A DNA stretch of 64,000 nucleotides from a virus. The first letter of the stretch is position 1. Every line of letters begins with the position of its first letter. The stretch lies in IMG/VR virus record IMGVR_UViG_3300032053_000025, positions 24,622-88,621 of that record. The stretch is one strand, 5' to 3'. Positions 39,943 through 56,279 of this stretch are shown here, in pieces. The position numbers and the translations under genes were made by a program. The notes beneath the pieces are model-generated. The model made no database searches. It worked only from the letters and a program-made list of their open reading frames with translations, and was not told the origin of the DNA.

Positions 39943-41589
39943 TTAAACGCCCGTTTTACAGTGGCGTTTTTGTACTTCTGATTCCGGCGTTGAAAAGCCG
40001 GCGAATTCTATTAGGAATTCTGCGATGGAAAAAACTTCGATACTTTGATATAAATGGTCTTCTTTTGCTATACAAACAAAAACCACTCCATCTGATCGGA
40101 CCATCGATACTACTTTTTGAATTTGCTCATCAAATTTATAATCTAGAGGCATAAACAAAAATCCATTATAAGCCAAATGGCAGAATCGTTCATGAGCCCA
40201 AAATTTCATTTTCTCGAATCGCTTGATTAGTTGGTGATTCTCGTCCCGTTTAGGTTTTCCATCATCGTCAAGAACATAACCGACTTCAATGTTCTCATTA
40301 AATGAAACCCGGATTAATTTTTTATTATCAATTTCAGGGTCTGCCTCTAAACTATTTAATATGCTACGGCCACATCCATCAGTACTATCTATCGATATAT
40401 ACGGTGCCTTAAATTTCTCATATAAAAATTTAAAAATTGGTTCTTGCTCAACATTAGTAAGCCCACGTAAAGTTATATTATAAAGATATCTCCATTTCTT
40501 ATTTACTAACGCCCATACCATAATTTCTGTGATTCCAATATCACTAATATCGGCAGATACTATTATTTTGTCGGCATTGGGTGGTCGATCTACGATAATT
40601 CTATGTTTGTAAAGAAAAAAATTCTTTTTATTTAATTCATAGTTCTTTATTGTATTGGCTTCGTCTAATTCCCCGTTAGCTTTATGCGGATACACCAAAT
40701 CCCGCAACCTTTGCATATCAAAAGCTACTTCGGTATTTTGAATAACTTCTCCATCCACATATATCTTGAACGGAATACTTAATTCTCCACCATATTTTTT
40801 AATAGCATTTTGTCTTTGTTTCAAATTAAAGTCGGGATTTATCATCTGTGGAAGATTTAATACTCTTCCTTTTTTTCTATTCTCAACATCATAAAACTGT
40901 TTACCTGCTGGGGATAAATCCGTAAAATCGGTCATTCCACTTACTCGAAATACCGTTCCGGCAGAATGAATTGAATCTTGCCGTTTTTCATAAACTATAT
41001 CTGACTCTAAACTAGCTTCTTCGACCACAAGCCGTTTGAAATGTTTTTGCAAAAACTGGTCGCCTGCTCGGGTTCCACAAGCGACATTCATGTTTACACT
41101 TTGTAAAACCGTTCCTAATTTGGTGGTAATATAATAACTACGATCAATAGAAGCAATAAAATGCTCCAAAATTGGATGACTTTCAAAAGCTTTAACAATG
41201 GGTTCTAGTGCACCTTTTAAATGCCCCATATCAAAAGAACTGAACCCCATCGATTCGTTGACGGCAAATAAAATATAGAGGCAGGAATCTATTTTCGAAA
41301 TAAAGGCGGTCTTGCCGTAATTCCTAGCCGCAAAATTATAAATCGAACCACAATTACTCCGCATTTCCATTTTTTCTTGTTCGGATAAATTAGTGCCCTC
41401 TAAGGCCAAACCATACTCATGTGATAGCAATGGAAATTGACCTAAGCGAGTCTTAACAAATTTATCCTCGGAGAACGATGTAAGGTTATCTACACTTGAA
41501 AATAAAGTTTCAGCGAGTGCGATACTGTCGGTCATCGTTTCGATCATACGACGATCTTCGTCGGTCAAAATAATTTTAGGTTCAAGCAT
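39943..41589 (-). CDS. terminase large subunit
   Basis: 548 aa. ATPase: NFAARNYGKTAFISK (Walker A), KRLVVEEASL (Walker B with catalytic Glu), VFRVSGMTD (coupling motif). RNase H-like nuclease: IIVSADISDIG (first Asp), YISIDSTDGCG (second Asp), and IAKEDHLYQSIEVF (third Asp region). Normal length for the family. No strong ribosome binding site; translation may be coupled to the small zinc-ribbon gene just upstream. Confidence 0.9.
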   Translation of the reverse strand: MLEPKIILTDEDRRMIETMTDSIALAETLFSSVDNLTSFSEDKFVKTRLGQFPLLSHEYGLALEGTNLSEQEKMEMRSNCGSIYNFAARNYGKTAFISKIDSCLYILFAVNESMGFSSFDMGHLKGALEPIVKAFESHPILEHFIASIDRSYYITTKLGTVLQSVNMNVACGTRAGDQFLQKHFKRLVVEEASLESDIVYEKRQDSIHSAGTVFRVSGMTDFTDLSPAGKQFYDVENRKKGRVLNLPQMINPDFNLKQRQNAIKKYGGELSIPFKIYVDGEVIQNTEVAFDMQRLRDLVYPHKANGELDEANTIKNYELNKKNFFLYKHRIIVDRPPNADKIIVSADISDIGITEIMVWALVNKKWRYLYNITLRGLTNVEQEPIFKFLYEKFKAPYISIDSTDGCGRSILNSLEADPEIDNKKLIRVSFNENIEVGYVLDDDGKPKRDENHQLIKRFEKMKFWAHERFCHLAYNGFLFMPLDYKFDEQIQKVVSMVRSDGVVFVCIAKEDHLYQSIEVFSIAEFLIEFAGFSTPESEVQKRHCKTGV

Positions 41590-42519: not shown

Positions 42520-42879
42520 TTATCCTATTGCCCACAATCTAATTTTTCCGTGGGACTTCAAATATATCTTATTTCTTTCAATCTGATTAAATGGCAATGC
42601 TTCACCGGCATATAAAACTCCGTCCACTTTGTTGCCATCCCAACTAAATAAAAGAACATTTGCCGAATCGTTTGATATTTGCACATTAGAAGCACTGAAT
42701 CCAAACTCAATTAATTGCCATTGAGGGCCTTCTAAGTTATTTTCATCATACATTTCAAAAAACCAATTGGTGCCTAATGCCTGTTTGAGTTGCAAAAGTT
42801 GAGAAGCTACATTTAAGCCTTTATAAGAGGCATTGGTATCAACTTGCAGATTTTTTAGCAACTCATTATTAAGTTCCAT
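42520..42879 (-). CDS. hypothetical late protein, 119 aa
   Basis: Overlaps the preceding gene by 11 bases. Beta-rich with WFFEMYDENNLEGPQWQLIE and SNDSANVLLFSWDG; resembles small capsid or fibre accessory sandwiches. Unassigned. Confidence 0.45.
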   Translation of the reverse strand: MELNNELLKNLQVDTNASYKGLNVASQLLQLKQALGTNWFFEMYDENNLEGPQWQLIEFGFSASNVQISNDSANVLLFSWDGNKVDGVLYAGEALPFNQIERNKIYLKSHGKIRLWAIG

Positions 42880-43720
42880 CGGATTCTCTATCTGTAGATT
42901 CCATTAAAGGGTCTATATTCTCAGTGCAATAAAGCTTGCGTTCTAACCATTTTCCATAAGAGTCATCCTGGCATTGACTGCCAAGTAAAACTTTGCATAC
43001 ATCAAGTAAGGTTATTTTGGATTCTTTATATAAGTTCCACAGCCAATCATTAGCTAGAATTTTATCCCTGAAAAAACTGTGTTTGAGAACGTCGTATGCC
43101 TCTGGGCGAAGGAGAAATAATAATGGTTTCCCGCAACTTGGACACTCCTTGTATTTGGAAACCTGGTTCAGTTCTTCGCTCCAAATTTTCATTTTTTTCA
43201 ACCATTGATTCCACTCAACCAATGGATCGTTCTTCTTCTTCTCTTCCGATAGTCCCAACAATTTTTTAATTTCAATTACTTTAGTGGTAAGTTCGGCTAA
43301 CGATCTCAATTCATTAATTGGCACCCTGGGATTTGTACCATTTCTCTGTGCATCTATGGCTTCCCTATTAAGAAAAGTTTGAATTCTATGAATCTGGGTT
43401 TCAAAATTAATACATGATTTCAATAAATCTTTATCCGATTCATTGGTAATATTATTTCCAGTAATATATTTATTAAAAAGAGTTAACGCAAAGGCCGCCT
43501 CTTCAGAACCAACCCAAGTACCGACCTCATTAGTAACCATTTCAATAATCGTGGGTTCTGCCGGAGTTGCATTAACAATGGTTCCATATTTCATATTGAA
43601 TTTTTCTTTCGCCACTCGCTCAAATTCTTCTACCGGCAAATTTGCAAAGGCCGGGAACACTTTTAATTTGGCTTTATAAGATTCAAAACTAATATGGGCT
43701 TTTTCGATTTTTTTCTTCAT
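42869..43720 (-). CDS. putative terminase small subunit, 283 aa
   Basis: First gene of the late operon. Helical, with FANLPVEEFERVAKEKFNMK (possible DNA-binding helices), a central coiled coil, and one Cys pair (CPSCGKPLLFLL). Small terminases lie just upstream of the large subunit and are helical DNA-binding proteins, hence the suggestion; three small genes intervene here. No diagnostic motif. Confidence 0.4.
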   Translation of the reverse strand: MKKKIEKAHISFESYKAKLKVFPAFANLPVEEFERVAKEKFNMKYGTIVNATPAEPTIIEMVTNEVGTWVGSEEAAFALTLFNKYITGNNITNESDKDLLKSCINFETQIHRIQTFLNREAIDAQRNGTNPRVPINELRSLAELTTKVIEIKKLLGLSEEKKKNDPLVEWNQWLKKMKIWSEELNQVSKYKECPSCGKPLLFLLRPEAYDVLKHSFFRDKILANDWLWNLYKESKITLLDVCKVLLGSQCQDDSYGKWLERKLYCTENIDPLMESTDRESDGT

Positions 43721-43750
43721 TTTAAACTTAAATAGTGCAATGGGTTATAT

Positions 43751-43822
43751 AAAATAAAAAAGCCACTAAATATGCAAATTGGCATAGTTTCTTCCTATGC
43801 TAATTCACAGATCAAGTGGCTT
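43751..43822 (-). terminator. intrinsic terminator at the 3' end of the 1-kb RNA
   Basis: AAGCCACT (43760-43767) pairs with AGTGGCTT (43815-43822); inside it, GCATAG/CTATGC forms a second stem. On the minus strand the outer stem is followed by TTTTTATTTT. The next gene starts only about 30 bases further on. Confidence 0.75.
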
Positions 43823-44740
43823 ATACCTATTTAACTAAGTTTAACCCGGATACCGGAAACTCAATAATGCTAAATAGTAAAGTATTTGTCTGTTAGTTTG
43901 AACTCAATTGTAAAATCCTGTAAGAGTATGGTTAAAACCCGATTTTCCATCGGGACCCTAATTTAGTTTATGGTTGTTTTACCAGATTAAACTACCACAC
44001 CTTACGGTGCAGGATATTTAAGAACCGATTACGCGATGCCCTCGGTTCGGGCCTCGAACCCTCTTAACCATAATGGTTTGGGCAATCCCCATATTATGTA
44101 GTGATTACCCTAAAGTTTTAATATCCTTTGTCCGAATATCCACCTGTGGTGGGTTTAAACCAAGGATTTCGTTCTGCAAACCAAGAATCTTTTTCCATGA
44201 AATCTGCCTCCAAATTTAACGGGTTCTTTGGGGAGGACAACCCGTAAGACTCTGCAAATTAACCTAATCTACTCCTTTGGTTAATTATTCCAAAGTATCC
44301 TATTCGATTAAGCCTATCTTTTGACTACTCCCCTTCCTCAGTGGCGACCTGAATAGGAACGGTTCGGGTTTCGTCGGTATAATATTTCCGGCATAAGCCG
44401 GTACTACATCAAGTCCTCAGCCTAAAGAGTAGGCACCCAATTTTCGAGATTGGGGATCAGAACCGGGTTTTGGCAAGACCTGACTTAGGAGGTCCCGTTA
44501 TCTTGCCGAGGTGAGACTAAAAACCACCTTTGCGGTGGCAGAGGATAGTTTTATGGAACCCTTGGAAAGAATCCCTAACTATCCTTGGTTGATTATAACC
44601 CTCTTTATGCTTACCACTTACAAGTGGCAGATAATAAAGAAGGAGCAAATAATTGAGGACATCATACATCTATGAAAGATAGCATATTTGAGGGAATATC
44701 CCTGCCGAAATCTTAGACAATAGACACTCTATATGTCCTC
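43752..44740 (-). ncRNA. large structured non-coding RNA, about 990 nt (GOLLD/ROOL-like class candidate)
   Basis: No open reading frame of useful length on either strand. It has its own promoter (44747-44775) and terminator (43751-43822). GAGGACAT at the 5' end pairs with 44655-44662. Perfect hairpins seen include 43938-43954, 43998-44009 (CACC-GTAA-GGTG on the RNA, a GNRA loop), 44388-44401, 44436-44454 and 44524-44538. Longer stems join 44543-44550 with 44577-44584, and 44220-44225 with 44239-44244. Length, phage setting and hairpin density match the general description of GOLLD and ROOL RNAs. Sequence-level identity was not tested. Confidence 0.7.
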
Positions 44741-44746
44741 ATTATA

Positions 44747-44775
44747 AGTATACCACATGAAACCTTAATTTACAA
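44747..44775 (-). promoter_or_regulatory. promoter of the 1-kb RNA
   Basis: On the minus strand: TTGTAA (44770-44775), 17-base spacer ending TGTGG, TATACT (44747-44752). Predicted start near 44740, exactly where the first paired GAGGACAT begins. Confidence 0.75.
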
Positions 44776-44930
44776 GTATTTTGCCCATTTATTTTCACCA
44801 ATAATAAACCTAAGTGCTATATAAGGTTAGGTGGAAAAGAACACATGGTAGTGAAAAATAGTTTATTTAAATATTACTGATTATTGATGTAAAGTGATTT
44901 TTTTGGCTTGAAAATTGTAGTTTACAAGGA

Positions 44931-45590
44931 TTATCTCTTTAATCTATCAGTTCCCTCCACCGTCACATTCCCCTGCGATTTTGGTAATTCTCCCACATAT
45001 GCACAAGGCCACGGAAGGCCGCAGACAACACAATAACCATGCAATTTTCCTTCTTGTGGGTTATGCTCACCCCCACAACAAGCTCGGTGAGCTATGGTCT
45101 GAGCAGTTCGCTCAATTAAGTTCCCTTGTGATTTCAGGGCGGAGAGTTCGTTGGATAAATCTATAACATTTTTCGCGTTTGCTCTTGCTTCTTTCCACGC
45201 TTCTGTTTCGTCTAATAATCGTTTTACATCTGCAAGCTCCGTATCCTTGGCGGAGAGTTCGGATTGGAGCTCCGCAATCTCATCATGCAACTCATCCACA
45301 ATCCCCACATGAGCAATCAGGGCGGCATCGAGAGATTTGTTCCAACTCTCTTGTTGTGGTGTTAACATTGTTTCTGGCGGTCTAATTTTCTCTTGCGAGG
45401 GCCAGTCCGATGATGCTGATAGGACGGCTTCGGTGAAGGAGAGTAAAATATTTCCATCATCAGATACAATAACCGTCTTATTACCTTTACAAGCTGGACA
45501 AGTTATCTTTGCTGATGATGACACACTCTCTGGGTTATCAATGGTTCCTAATCCCCTACAACTTGGACAAACAATAGGATATGTTCTCAC
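44931..45590 (-). CDS. DnaJ-type zinc-finger/coiled-coil protein, 219 aa
   Basis: GTG at 45590 is preferred because AGAGAGGTGC precedes it; a frame from 45632 would begin at the predicted transcript start. Residues about 8-40 have CPSCRGLGTI and CPACKGNK, DnaJ-type C-x-x-C-x-G-x-G modules. Residues 90-165 are coiled coil (VDELHDEIAELQSELSAKD). The C-terminus has CCGG and CVVCGLPWPC. GC content by eye is clearly above the surroundings, suggesting a recent arrival. Function unknown. Confidence 0.6.
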   Translation of the reverse strand: MRTYPIVCPSCRGLGTIDNPESVSSSAKITCPACKGNKTVIVSDDGNILLSFTEAVLSASSDWPSQEKIRPPETMLTPQQESWNKSLDAALIAHVGIVDELHDEIAELQSELSAKDTELADVKRLLDETEAWKEARANAKNVIDLSNELSALKSQGNLIERTAQTIAHRACCGGEHNPQEGKLHGYCVVCGLPWPCAYVGELPKSQGNVTVEGTDRLKR

Positions 45591-45636
45591 TTCCGCACCT
45601 CTCTTTTTAAATATGGTTAAAATAATCCTCACTTAT

Positions 45637-45665
45637 AGTATAACATAAGTTTACTTAGTTTGCAA
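45637..45665 (-). promoter_or_regulatory. sigma-70-like promoter
   Basis: Minus-strand TTGCAA (45660-45665), 17-base spacer, TATACT (45637-45642). Drives the zinc-finger/coiled-coil gene leftward. Confidence 0.65.
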
Positions 45666-45846
45666 GTTTTGTTCAGAAAAATAATATACCATTAAATCTC
45701 ATTTCTCCAAAATCCCTAGAAATTCATAAACCATCAAAATTTACACACCTTATATATACGCCAATTTATATCTTATTTTTTTCACCCTATTATATAGAAA
45801 ATATGTTATTTGTCTTTATTGATTATTTACCTATGTTACATAATAT

Positions 45847-45969
45847 ACTCTCCCTAGAGGGAGAGTTAATAGTTTAATTAAGGGATCTCTTTAATAGAGA
45901 TCCCTATTAACTCTTTTAGTTATATTATTGAAAAGCATAATATAACTAGGTATTTCTAATCGAAATACC
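45847..45969. repeat. cluster of perfect hairpins
   Basis: In 123 bases: ACTCTCCC/GGGAGAGT (45847-45866, 4-base loop); AGGGATCTCT/AGAGATCCCT (45881-45905, 5-base loop) enclosed by GAGTTAATAG/CTATTAACTC (45863-45913); a 12-bp TAGTTATATTAT stem (45917-45948); and GGTATTTC/GAAATACC (45949-45969). The first hairpin and the enclosing stem share bases, so they exclude each other. Confidence 0.85.
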
Positions 45970-46124
45970 ACTTCTAGCTTTTTAAAATTATATAAATAAA
46001 AACAAGTAAAGATTTAATAATGGAGATAATAAAGTAGATGATATTAAAGTGATAATAAGCGTCGGCCTCAAAGCTGAATAAACCCAATATAATTTATGGG
46101 TGCCTTCCAGGATTAGAACAGGTA

Positions 46125-46152
46125 CCTGCTAAATCCAACCTACCCGGGGTAG
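46125..46152. repeat. 28-base related element, copy A
   Basis: Aligns without gaps to 46992-47019 at 21 of 28 positions; the shared core is TGCTAAA and GGGGTAG. It lies in a palindrome-rich patch (CAGGTACCTG at 46119-46128, CTACCCGGGGTAG at 46140-46152). Confidence 0.5.
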
Positions 46153-46984
46153 CTACTATCATTTCATACAATTCTATGTATAATAATCTACAACAATGAA
46201 GCTATTAATAAGCTTAATCAACTCATACTAATTTAGTATTAATTAGGAGTTTAATAGTAATTGAGCTTGATAAAGAATAAATACATAACAAAATTGATAA
46301 GTTAATGTATTGTTGGGTAATTACTGAATAGTACTTATTAGTAATTAACCGGTAATTAAAATACCATATTGTAGATTCCACGGAATGGTTTGATATAGGT
46401 TGATAAGGTTTGAATAAATAGTGATAATAAAATCAAATAAAGCATAAAATAACCCAAATGCCCAAATTAAGGCATAGGATAGGCAAGGTTGCATTATTAT
46501 TAAAAAGAGTATGGATATGGCTTAAAATAATTTAAATGGCAAGGACAAGCCTTAGAACGATAATTTGAGGCATTGTAGTAACCATAATTAAAGTTTGGCA
46601 TAGGAATTCCAGGAAGTATAATAATTAAGATTAGATTAAATAGCATAATTAATTGTCAGATAGATCAATAATCATAATAAAATGAGCAATTAATTGGAGA
46701 AAATAATGTAAAGGATGTTAAAGATTGCATAAGGATGGTAAGTAAAAGTAGATAAAAGTAAAGAATGTTAAGGTTAGCATATTGGTAGGGAAAGGATAGG
46801 ATAATATACACCATAAATAAGGCTATAAAATAGATTAAATACTGTAAGAGGCGGAGTCTTGCAAGGTTGGAAAATTTAAAGTAGAATATGAGTATGGAAT
46901 GAGTATGGTAAGGTTGGATAAATGCCGATAATTGGATGATTATTCATCGATAGAGTATAACCGTGGTATGTATTTTGAGGCAGA

Positions 46985-47019
46985 TCGGCGGGCTTGCTAA
47001 AACGGACCCGCCGGGGGTA
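46985..47019. repeat. GC-rich hairpin containing related element, copy B
   Basis: CGGCGGG (46985-46991) pairs with CCCGCCG (47006-47012) around a 14-base loop, a strong GC stem in AT-rich surroundings. Element copy B spans 46992-47019. Confidence 0.6.
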
Positions 47020-47333
47020 GGGTATAGGTAAACTATTGCAGTATAACATAATAGAGTCTTATAATCTAATAGAGATTATAATACAAACATGACTTTTTTC
47101 CACCACCATTTTTTAATGCAAATGATTGATAAATTATACCTATAAATTACAATAGTAAGTATGTTTTATACTCACTATTTAAGCATAAGTAAGTAGATAA
47201 ACTACTTACTTTTTAAGCATAGTTTGCCCCGTTTACTACTCATTAATAGAGGATATTATACCTGTATAATTAATGTTTCTAATCAATCTATTTAATGTTA
47301 TTTATTGTGATATTTTAGGTTAGTTATAACAAT

Positions 47334-47449
47334 AAAAAAGCCTAAGTAATTAAACTTAGGCTTTCTTTTGACTCTGTAAAGGGGAAGGTTAACGCTCATT
47401 TTATGGTTGAGTAACCAGTTATTTTAGTCTGATACTTCCTATCCTTTAC
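47334..47449 (-). ncRNA. small structured RNA of about 115 nt
   Basis: Own promoter at 47456-47484 and own terminator at 47337-47364. On the RNA, CTGTAAAGG near the 5' end pairs with CCTTTACAG just before the terminator. Adjacent GGAAG/CTTCC extends the helix, and TGGTT-ACTC-AACCA forms an inner hairpin. No translatable frame. A trans-acting regulator or RNA-polymerase-binding RNA is possible; no known family was recognised. Confidence 0.65.
47337..47364. terminator. bidirectional intrinsic terminator
   Basis: 11-bp stem AAAGCCTAAGT/ACTTAGGCTTT with loop AATTAA. T-runs on both strands: TTTTTT on the minus side and CTTTT on the plus side. It ends the small RNA and any read-through from the two minus-strand genes. 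Confidence 0.85.
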
Positions 47450-47455
47450 AGTTAA

Positions 47456-47484
47456 AGTATACATCATACTTTACTATTTGTCAA
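47456..47484 (-). promoter_or_regulatory. promoter of the small RNA
   Basis: Minus strand TTGACA (47479-47484), 17-base spacer, TATACT (47456-47461). Predicted start near 47449. Confidence 0.75.
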
Positions 47485-47537
47485 GAAAATAACCAACTTT
47501 TCTTAGGCTTACCAATTAGATACTATTAGGCCTCTTA

Positions 47538-47804
47538 TTATCTATTACACCTAGGAATAAATGCTTTTACTCTTGCATGCCTGTATACTTGACTATAACC
47601 ATGCAAATACGCGTCTTCATGAGCCTTAGTACTATTAGGATAAATTTTGCCGTTCAATTCCCCGAATTGATAAACTGTTTTATTATGCAACTTACGCGGA
47701 ATAAATACCGATAGTTCCGCTTGGCCGTCAGGTAAACACCCAGTTGTACTACTTACGCTCCATTTACCTTGTGTTACTATTATGCTTGAATTATAGGGGA
47801 TCAT
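47538..47804 (-). CDS. hypothetical protein, 88 aa
   Basis: AGAGGAGGTGC before ATG. Ser/Thr-rich beta N-terminus, then HEDAYLHGYSQVYRHARVKAF, a basic His/Tyr-rich stretch. Early-type gene running leftward from the hub with the 57-aa gene upstream. Unassigned. Confidence 0.55.
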   Translation of the reverse strand: MIPYNSSIIVTQGKWSVSSTTGCLPDGQAELSVFIPRKLHNKTVYQFGELNGKIYPNSTKAHEDAYLHGYSQVYRHARVKAFIPRCNR

Positions 47805-54933: not shown

Positions 54934-54952
54934 GTATAAGGAGGTAAATAAT

Positions 54953-55117
54953 ATGTCAAATATTGATGGTATCGACGAATGGCTAAGATCCGAATGTATT
55001 GATTTTTTAAGCAATAGAAATATTTTAGACTTATATGTAATGCCCATAGAAGAATTAAGAAAACAATGCCGAAGGGTTAAAGGGATAGGTATAGAGGCTA
55101 AAAGTGCCTCAAAATAG
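54953..55117 (+). CDS. small hypothetical protein, 54 aa
   Basis: AAGGAGGTAAATAAT before ATG at 54953; TAG at 55115-55117. Acidic N-half (NIDGIDEWLRSECIDF) and basic C-half (LRKQCRRVKGIGIEAK). Lies between the two 50-base repeats. Unassigned. Confidence 0.6.
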   Translation: MSNIDGIDEWLRSECIDFLSNRNILDLYVMPIEELRKQCRRVKGIGIEAKSASK

Positions 55118-55203
55118 CCTTTAGAGTACCCTACAATCGATTATTATTGATTGGTAAGGATAATCTATGGCAACTCAAAATAGGAATATAATTAGTCTCA
55201 AAC

Positions 55204-55232
55204 TTGCAAATTGAGAAATATTGTGTTATACT
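55204..55232 (+). promoter_or_regulatory. promoter of the 55.2-55.6 kb RNA
   Basis: TTGCAA (55204-55209), 17-base spacer, TATACT (55227-55232). Confidence 0.7.
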
Positions 55233-55238
55233 ATGAGT

Positions 55239-55566
55239 ACAGGGATATAATCCCGATTAGGACTATGGCGGTATGCAGGCTTTACCTAAAATAACCGCAT
55301 CGGATTAGTACGATTAGCATAACTAATTATTGTTATGGGCCGAGTAATGGATGACAAAAAGGAAGTTCCATCGAGGTTTTAAGTATGGGTATAAGCTCGT
55401 TAAAAGTAGAAAAAAGTTTTTAATATTGGGGGGGATTAAGAGAAGAGCTTTAGTGAAATTGAAGCTATCTCATTTAGCCGGAAAGCAAGAGCAAAATTAC
55501 GGATTGAGCCGTCCAAGAATATAAATCCGCATAAAGCTTGGTAAATCTTGCTAATCCCCTCTTTTA
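55239..55566 (+). ncRNA. structured RNA candidate, about 330 nt, ending in a terminator stem
   Basis: Starts after a consensus promoter. A 5' module has GGGATATAATCCC and GCGGT/ACCGC hairpins. The middle holds 50-base repeat copy 2. The 3' module is closed by GGGGATTA/TAATCCCC (55431-55438 and 55552-55559), followed by TCTTTT, and contains AGCTT/AAGCT and ACGG/CCGT hairpins. No frame with a ribosome binding site. Could also be two adjacent RNAs. Confidence 0.55.
55374..55423 (+). repeat. 50-base direct repeat, copy 2
   Basis: Second, non-coding copy of the 3' end of the collagen-like gene, 490 bases downstream of the first and in the same orientation. Confidence 0.95.
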
Positions 55567-55602
55567 AATAGTAATTAATGCTATACTTTAATTAAGATTA
55601 AA

Positions 55603-55674
55603 TGGGGAAGATATGTGAATTGGGCTAAACTCTGAGGATACGCAGGATGTAGGTTCGAGTCCTGCTCTCCCCCA
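55603..55674 (+). tRNA. tRNA-like element with aberrant D and anticodon arms
   Basis: The 3' part is a canonical T-arm: GTAGG-TTCGAGT-CCTGC. TGGGGAAGA (55603-55611) pairs with TCTCCCCCA (55666-55674) with one A-C mismatch, a longer-than-normal acceptor helix. The D-loop region has TTGGG but only a 2-bp stem, and the anticodon stem (TCTG/CAGG) leaves an 8-base loop, so no anticodon can be assigned. A TATACT box at 55582-55587 precedes it. A degenerate tRNA or tRNA mimic. Confidence 0.45.
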
Positions 55675-55693
55675 AAATTTAAAGGAGGAATAA

Positions 55694-55930
55694 ATGTTTA
55701 ATTTTTTAAAGGGATTATTTGAACAACCACAACAGAAAAAGAAAGAACCAGAAGAAGTTTTTTGTAATAATTGTTGCCATAATTATTGTGATGAATGTAG
55801 ACATGAAAATAATCTTCGAAAGAGAAGAACGCCTCAAGAACTTTTTTATGATTCTATAAAAACTCAAGATGAACTTAATGTAGACAACAAGTGTTTGTGG
55901 TTTGAAAAGAATTCCTGCTATCCCTATTAA
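55694..55930 (+). CDS. cysteine-rich protein, 78 aa
   Basis: AAAGGAGGAATAA before ATG. Cys cluster CNNCCHNYCDECRHE plus two later Cys, likely a zinc site. Acidic linker before it. A nucleic-acid-binding role is possible; family not recognised. Confidence 0.6.
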   Translation: MFNFLKGLFEQPQQKKKEPEEVFCNNCCHNYCDECRHENNLRKRRTPQELFYDSIKTQDELNVDNKCLWFEKNSCYPY

Positions 55931-56068
55931 AGTACAGCGCCGGAGGCTGGAACGAAGTCTCCTGCTTGGAGAAAGCCTCGGAGGTATATAGAGACCTAAT
56001 AGGGCAGTTGAAAATATGATCGATGGGCTTCATATGAAGCCAGGTAATAACCAATTATAAGGAAATTT
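55931..56068 (+). promoter_or_regulatory. structured intergenic region with a 16-base palindrome
   Basis: TCTCC-TGCTT-GGAGA (55958-55972) is nested in AGGCT/AGCCT (55944-55948 and 55974-55978). GGCTTCATATGAAGCC at 56026-56041 is a perfect 16-base palindrome, a possible operator. No gene was found here. Confidence 0.5.
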
Positions 56069-56185
56069 ATGATAGTCGGAATTAATTTGGCCGATAGCTT
56101 AGAGTGCAACAAGGTTGTTATTATTATTAAATTTTTGGGCCGGGATATTACTATTACAGGGAGAAAAGATTTTATTAACCTATAA
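56069..56185 (+). CDS. small hypothetical protein, 38 aa
   Basis: ATAAGGAAATTT before ATG; ends TAA 56183-56185. Alternating hydrophobic strands (KVVIIIKFLGRDITITGR). Unassigned. Confidence 0.45.
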   Translation: MIVGINLADSLECNKVVIIIKFLGRDITITGRKDFINL

Positions 56186-56217
56186 TCCTAATTTTATCAA
56201 ACAATATAGGAGATACC

Positions 56218-56277
56218 ATGAGTAAAGAATTTTTAACTTATAATAATCCGGTATTTGAGTTACAAAGAAAGGAATAA
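56218..56277 (+). CDS. tiny peptide frame, 19 aa
   Basis: AGGAGATACC before ATG; MSKEFLTYNNPVF then a charged end. Stops two bases before the next ATG, so it may be a coupled leader peptide. Weak evidence. Confidence 0.35.
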   Translation: MSKEFLTYNNPVFELQRKE

Positions 56278-56279
56278 AA

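Follow-up and report, generated by a model that had tools for sequence, protein, structure and literature searches.

Between a switch and the first particle-building gene, an uncultivated phage carries a promising candidate for a folded non-coding RNA gene of about 1,000 letters. Coding analysis and structure prediction support a large, strongly folded, non-coding phage RNA that has a promoter of its own and whose end looks like a terminator. Most likely, it is an orphan among the large structured RNAs of phages, resembling GOLLD and ROOL in kind (size, host type and fold density) and not in family. The window, i.e., the whole 64,000-nucleotide stretch of DNA analysed, derives from an 88.6 kb IMG/VR virus record. 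Within it, a 1,210-base gap (43721–44930) holds the element, with a zinc-finger ORF (233 aa) on one side and an ORF of 283 aa on the other. The features of this region are as follows.

44931–45632, minus strand: gene with a DnaJ/anti-TRAP-type zinc finger, upstream of the element (233 aa)
44747–44775, minus strand: sigma-70-type extended −10 promoter, TTGTAA-N17-TATACT, with TG preceding the −10 and a predicted start at G44740
43752–44740, minus strand: structured non-coding RNA, the late leader RNA, of ~980–990 nt, with no sense frame above 50 aa and a folding z-score signal
42869–43720, minus strand: terS, small-terminase-like, immediately downstream of the element (283 aa)
39943–41589, minus strand: terL, probable large terminase (548 aa), with relatives in 20 IMG/VR loci at ~31–40% identity

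Coding content and neighbouring genes

In the element, the longest stop-to-stop frame is 50 aa in the sense direction and 65 aa in antisense, which bears out the original prediction that the minus strand from 44740 to 43752 lacks a usable frame. None of eight frame segments tested from the element gave a meaningful PHROG match. At the element's 5′ end, GTG TCT ATT GTC TAA (compared with ATG TCT ATT GAC in L028) may be what is left of a leader ORF, but was rejected as too short.

Downstream, the 283-aa gene is probably the small terminase gene, a function assigned from its position. In 16 related loci a homologue (E 2e-9 to 2e-26) neighbours TerL, which confirms synteny. The 548-aa gene is probably the large terminase, named from position, size and conservation, and its protein has no Pfam or PHROG match. 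The order of the two genes and their joint conservation fit a terminase pair, while database models name neither.

Upstream, the zinc-finger protein matches PF15777 (E 3.6e-7, just below the cut-off) and PDB 1exk (E 0.0021), and very weakly the Q-like antitermination family phrog_6060 (E 0.0015). A promoter-like site precedes its gene at 45665–45637, and no homologue of the gene was found in the related loci examined. The adjoining 1.9 kb (45640–47540) is AT-rich and ORF-poor, separates the late module from the divergent early one and shows a modest folding signal on both strands. It is possibly an origin or control region, and gaps of 1.6–2 kb occur near the matching place in G008 (85102–87058), G009 (86164–87776) and G012 (90526–92290). 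A further ORF-poor region at 54934–56279 has a sigma-70-type promoter at 55204 and, near 55604–55676, a tRNA-like sequence, with the arm GGTTCGAGTCC and the end CTCCCCCA, that ARAGORN passes over.

The late promoter and its leader in related phages

A 7-base spacing from the −10 places the start at G44740, which is the first base of GAGGACAU. The predicted placement of TTGTAA-N17-TATACT for a start at a paired 5′ helix is borne out, the helix having a pair probability of 0.90. As a single match the motif is ordinary, with 9 promoter-like sites observed against 6.3 expected in 2.3 kb. Across the whole record the extended −10 pattern occurs 10 times (Markov mean 4.3, maximum 11). Because this count is near chance, the promoter claim rests on conservation in relatives. 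On the late strand, just one further extended −10 promoter is convincing, and it lies in front of the adjacent zinc-finger gene; the other two minus-strand pattern matches (45710 and 1420) are weak. That promoter excepted, the pattern search of the ~33 kb late module returned no further convincing minus-strand promoter.

Relatives were collected by TerL, which gave the 20 IMG/VR loci. As other seeds, TerS and DNA polymerase proteins gave zero relatives and the tape measure protein gave one; bacterial genome contigs held no TerL relative. Comparison of the element and its flank with the TerL-relative loci by blastn revealed one convincing match, which is the promoter block a short way ahead of terS. 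TATGTGGTATACTTATAGTAGAGG or close variants, with TTG upstream at normal spacing, lie 134–196 bases before terS in five loci (L026, L028, L029, L030 and L031). In each, the promoter is followed by a leader of 100–165 nt that closes with a hairpin and a T-run. Since L030 and L031 have identical terS, they are not independent, and the five loci amount to four distinct sequences. A similar leader is found in L011, L013 and L032, the latter two with an extra gene ahead of terS. In eight loci the first late gene is preceded by a promoter and a terminator-like hairpin; the arrangement is unclear in the other relatives, and G001 has only ~50 bases before terS. The original prediction treated the promoter as the element's own. 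Its motif and position stand, but this reading missed that it is the terS/late promoter common to the relatives.

Several of these leaders contain a short Phe/Tyr/Ile-rich ORF. Such ORFs (e.g., MSMNIFLYINSIF, MSMSFLYINLGVSIY and MSNNFSIYNYILTEQNPM) sit between the late promoter and the hairpin (L011, position 32; L013, 3200; L026, 5196; L028, 5202; L029, 3238; L031, 5203; L032, 4003) and could be attenuation-type leader peptides. Upstream of the late promoter/terS, tRNA genes are present in L027 (24), L026 (7), L030/L031 (4) and L028 (1). In L006 (9173–11911; G001) and L011 (1078–3876), the TerL genes are interrupted by intein-like segments several hundred residues long, inserted at two different positions, one of which is the GK of the ATP-binding motif.

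On our best reading, the element is the inherited late-operon leader expanded to ~990 nt. Promoter and terminator belong to this inherited leader, and the novel part is the ~850 nt of structured RNA inside. The lambda late leader (pR′–6S RNA–tR′, with Q antitermination) has the same order of promoter, terminated leader RNA and late genes. It differs in length (~194 nt against ~990 nt), and a Q homologue is not established for the phage studied here.

The enlarged leader might act solely in cis, similarly to the HK022 put RNA or a Q-type system: the RNA, alone or with a phage protein, would modify the polymerase, which would then pass the terminal hairpin and continue into the late operon, and no free function would follow. 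The partner could be the product of 44931–45632, a candidate read-through factor into terS on the basis of position and a weak profile match. Such a role agrees with the location of the element, which follows the sole convincing late-operon promoter and precedes terS, with the same-placed promoter, short leader and hairpin of the relatives, some with the Phe/Tyr/Ile-rich ORF, and with the weak resemblance of the upstream zinc finger to Q-type antiterminators. However, 100–165 nt suffices in the relatives, so 990 nt is far beyond need, and the candidate partner combines a Q match at only E 0.0015 with the lack of a homologue in the related loci examined. We consider a purely cis-acting leader rather unlikely.

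Folding signal and predicted structure

The transcribed strand of the whole element folds at −316.1 kcal/mol, with z-scores of −7.1 (20 shuffles) and −7.45 (40 shuffles), and of −6.6 once the terminator hairpin is removed. The signal is not confined to the terminal hairpins, because RNA 87–860, the middle left after removal of the 5′ helix and the 3′ hairpins, still scores z −5.7; the antisense of this middle gives −2.3. The antisense of the whole element also beats shuffled sequence (z −4.1), which counts against our best explanation. Six equal-length, same-strand coding stretches of the phage served as controls and ranged from +1.7 to −3.1, and in sliding windows the signal starts and stops at the limits of the element. 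GOLLD and ROOL form homo-multimeric RNA cages; for the element, co-folding as a homodimer (−641.4 against 2 × −316.1 kcal/mol) yields a marginal gain that says little.

In the predicted structure, many hairpins have a pair probability above 0.85, in line with the earlier description of the element as hairpin-dense, and long-range helices are among the high-probability ones. Its domains, all on the minus strand, are listed from the 5′ end.

44655–44740, minus strand: 5′ domain closed by GAGGACAU/AUGUCCUC, the latter at 44662–44655 (pair probability 0.90)
43883–44651, minus strand: body inside a predicted long-range helix UAUUUG/CAAAUA (RNA 90–95 / 853–858; probability 0.83)
44472–44507, minus strand: hairpin GGCAAGAU/GUCUUGCC (probability 0.92)
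44233–44418, minus strand: central multi-branched domain with closing helices GAGGAC/GUCCUC and AACCCG/CGGGUU (probability 0.94–0.95)
43752–43822, minus strand: terminator-like 63-nt imperfect hairpin (43822–43760; outer stem probability 0.96), then TTTTATTT

Read by eye, a possible H-type pseudoknot would pair CGGG (244–247) with CCCG (274–277) in the GGCAAGAU/GUCUUGCC hairpin. A kissing loop CUCGA/UCGAG was rejected as about chance level among that many loops. The GNRA loop proposed earlier did not survive: CCACC-GCAAA-GGTGG encloses a GCAAA pentaloop, and the predicted structure contains zero strict GNRA tetraloops. The element had also been said to end in a stem with a T-run; the 63-nt imperfect hairpin followed by TTTTATTT agrees with this, but a simple terminator scan did not flag it, probably because the long stem is interrupted. 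Within the element, GGGUUCGAGGCCC (44061–44049, minus strand) resembles a tRNA T-loop, a motif that serves tertiary contacts in large RNAs.

Searches for homologues of the body by blastn in phages and plasmids returned only chance matches of ~36 bases or fewer, and in the IMG/VR TerL relatives, whole records included, the promoter block alone matched. Scans for exact patterns gave zero loci for GGTTCGAGGCCCGAACCGA and none in genomes for GGCAAGATAACGGGACCT, while the 16 loci found with CGACGAAACCCGAACC were all chance. Of the 4 loci matched by GGGGAGTAGTCAAAAG, three fall on a small phage gene (phrog_2423) and the fourth coincides with a terminator-like hairpin; these were judged chance. A pattern scan also aligned 29 bases (27 of them identical) with the beginning of this common small gene; the alignment breaks off sharply at either end, no frame continues in the window, and this match too was judged chance. 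A single-sequence covariance model (R1) of the 186-nt central domain found only itself in 19 records and 0.85 Mb.

A body that is lineage-specific and absent from relatives could instead be a non-functional or decayed insert (a pseudogene, a tRNA-array remnant or a mobile-element scar) whose leftover hairpins give the folding signal. The tRNA genes upstream of the same promoter in several relatives, which indicate a variable neighbourhood, and the 29-base phrog_2423 match are consistent with this origin. The z-score of the middle, the bias toward the transcribed strand and the long-range helices at 0.94–0.95 argue against it, as do frame segments that match no protein family, the lack of ARAGORN tRNA calls and the chance status of the 29-base match. 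We therefore regard decayed DNA as improbable.

Known phage RNAs and a possible role

The original prediction took the element for a member or distant relative of GOLLD and ROOL, or for a new class; membership is not supported by the searches. Zero Rfam families matched across the window at gathering score; for the element, relaxing the threshold to E 10 brought up weak matches only, all irrelevant. Intron families were missing from these, and a group I or group II intron identity was accordingly rejected. Direct covariance searches of the record and 17 related records scored nothing with GOLLD (RF02032) and nothing with ROOL (RF03087), the controls of the latter search being silent too; cmscan agreed. 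The element fails both sequence-structure models and is therefore not filed under either family. GOLLD RNAs combine a conserved 3′ domain with a variable 5′ domain and frequently, though not obligatorily, lie near phage tRNA genes.

GOLLD nevertheless shares with the element a large size (GOLLD is often over 800 nt), a multi-domain, non-coding nature and carriage by phages, and its expression is reported to increase during lysis (PMC12286853). In contrast, the element has no covariance-model match, and ARAGORN found no tRNA gene in its 88.6 kb record. ROOL is likewise a large structured phage-borne non-coding RNA; its model spans 574 positions against ~990 nt and does not match. A GOLLD or ROOL too distant for Rfam to recognise would fit the size, phage location and fold density, as would an intron-like ribozyme, and the relatives' tRNA genes lie near this spot as they do near GOLLD and ROOL (PMC12286853). 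Set against the negative results at both Rfam thresholds, intron families included, the silence of RF03087 and RF02032 in 18 records and the tRNA-free record, this origin appears very improbable.

Also comparable are the lnc001 and lnc002 RNAs of phage K (PMC9241854) and an ~800-nt RNA of vibriophage ICP1 (PMC7567579), which are unclassified, abundant and shown by RNA-seq. These are orphan non-coding phage transcripts of 0.6–1.2 kb, as the element is predicted to be, and the ICP1 RNA also lies away from tRNA genes; unlike the element, they are not at terS. By the same fold score, lnc002, which was detected by RNA-seq (PMC9241854), reaches z −4.5, a signal comparable to that of the element, and lnc001 reaches −1.3. 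The element has no significant sequence similarity to either phage K RNA.

In sum, the absence of coding, the strand-biased folding, the promoter and leader hairpin shared with relatives and the adjacency to terS lead to an explanation that we hold with moderate confidence: a leader of the late (terminase, head and tail) operon has grown, in one lineage, into a large structured RNA that is released as a discrete molecule. A host-type RNA polymerase would start at 44740 and copy ~980 nt, which would fold into several domains. Usually it would stop at the 43822–43760 hairpin, leaving a discrete and stable RNA; polymerase passing the hairpin would produce late mRNA beginning with terS, a read-through that would need a regulated step. 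As is suspected for GOLLD and ROOL, the RNA may act in trans, perhaps as a multimer, and not merely in cis.

The phi29 packaging RNA offers a further parallel as a phage structural RNA, the element's gene adjoining the terminase genes. It is ~174 nt long and its partner is the phi29-type ATPase, whereas the element is far longer and has no Rfam match. Only tentatively do we suggest that the element belongs to a previously undescribed class of large ornate phage RNAs that has no relationship to GOLLD or ROOL; its late promoter would tie its abundance to late expression, and it may aid packaging or assembly.

Very large structured phage RNAs are few, and the element is an example outside the GOLLD and ROOL models. 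It occupies a defined regulatory site (late promoter, leader, hairpin and terS), which connects such RNAs with late expression or packaging, and the short leaders of its relatives make comparisons with and without the RNA possible. The arrangement suggests that such RNAs may arise within an existing regulatory leader.
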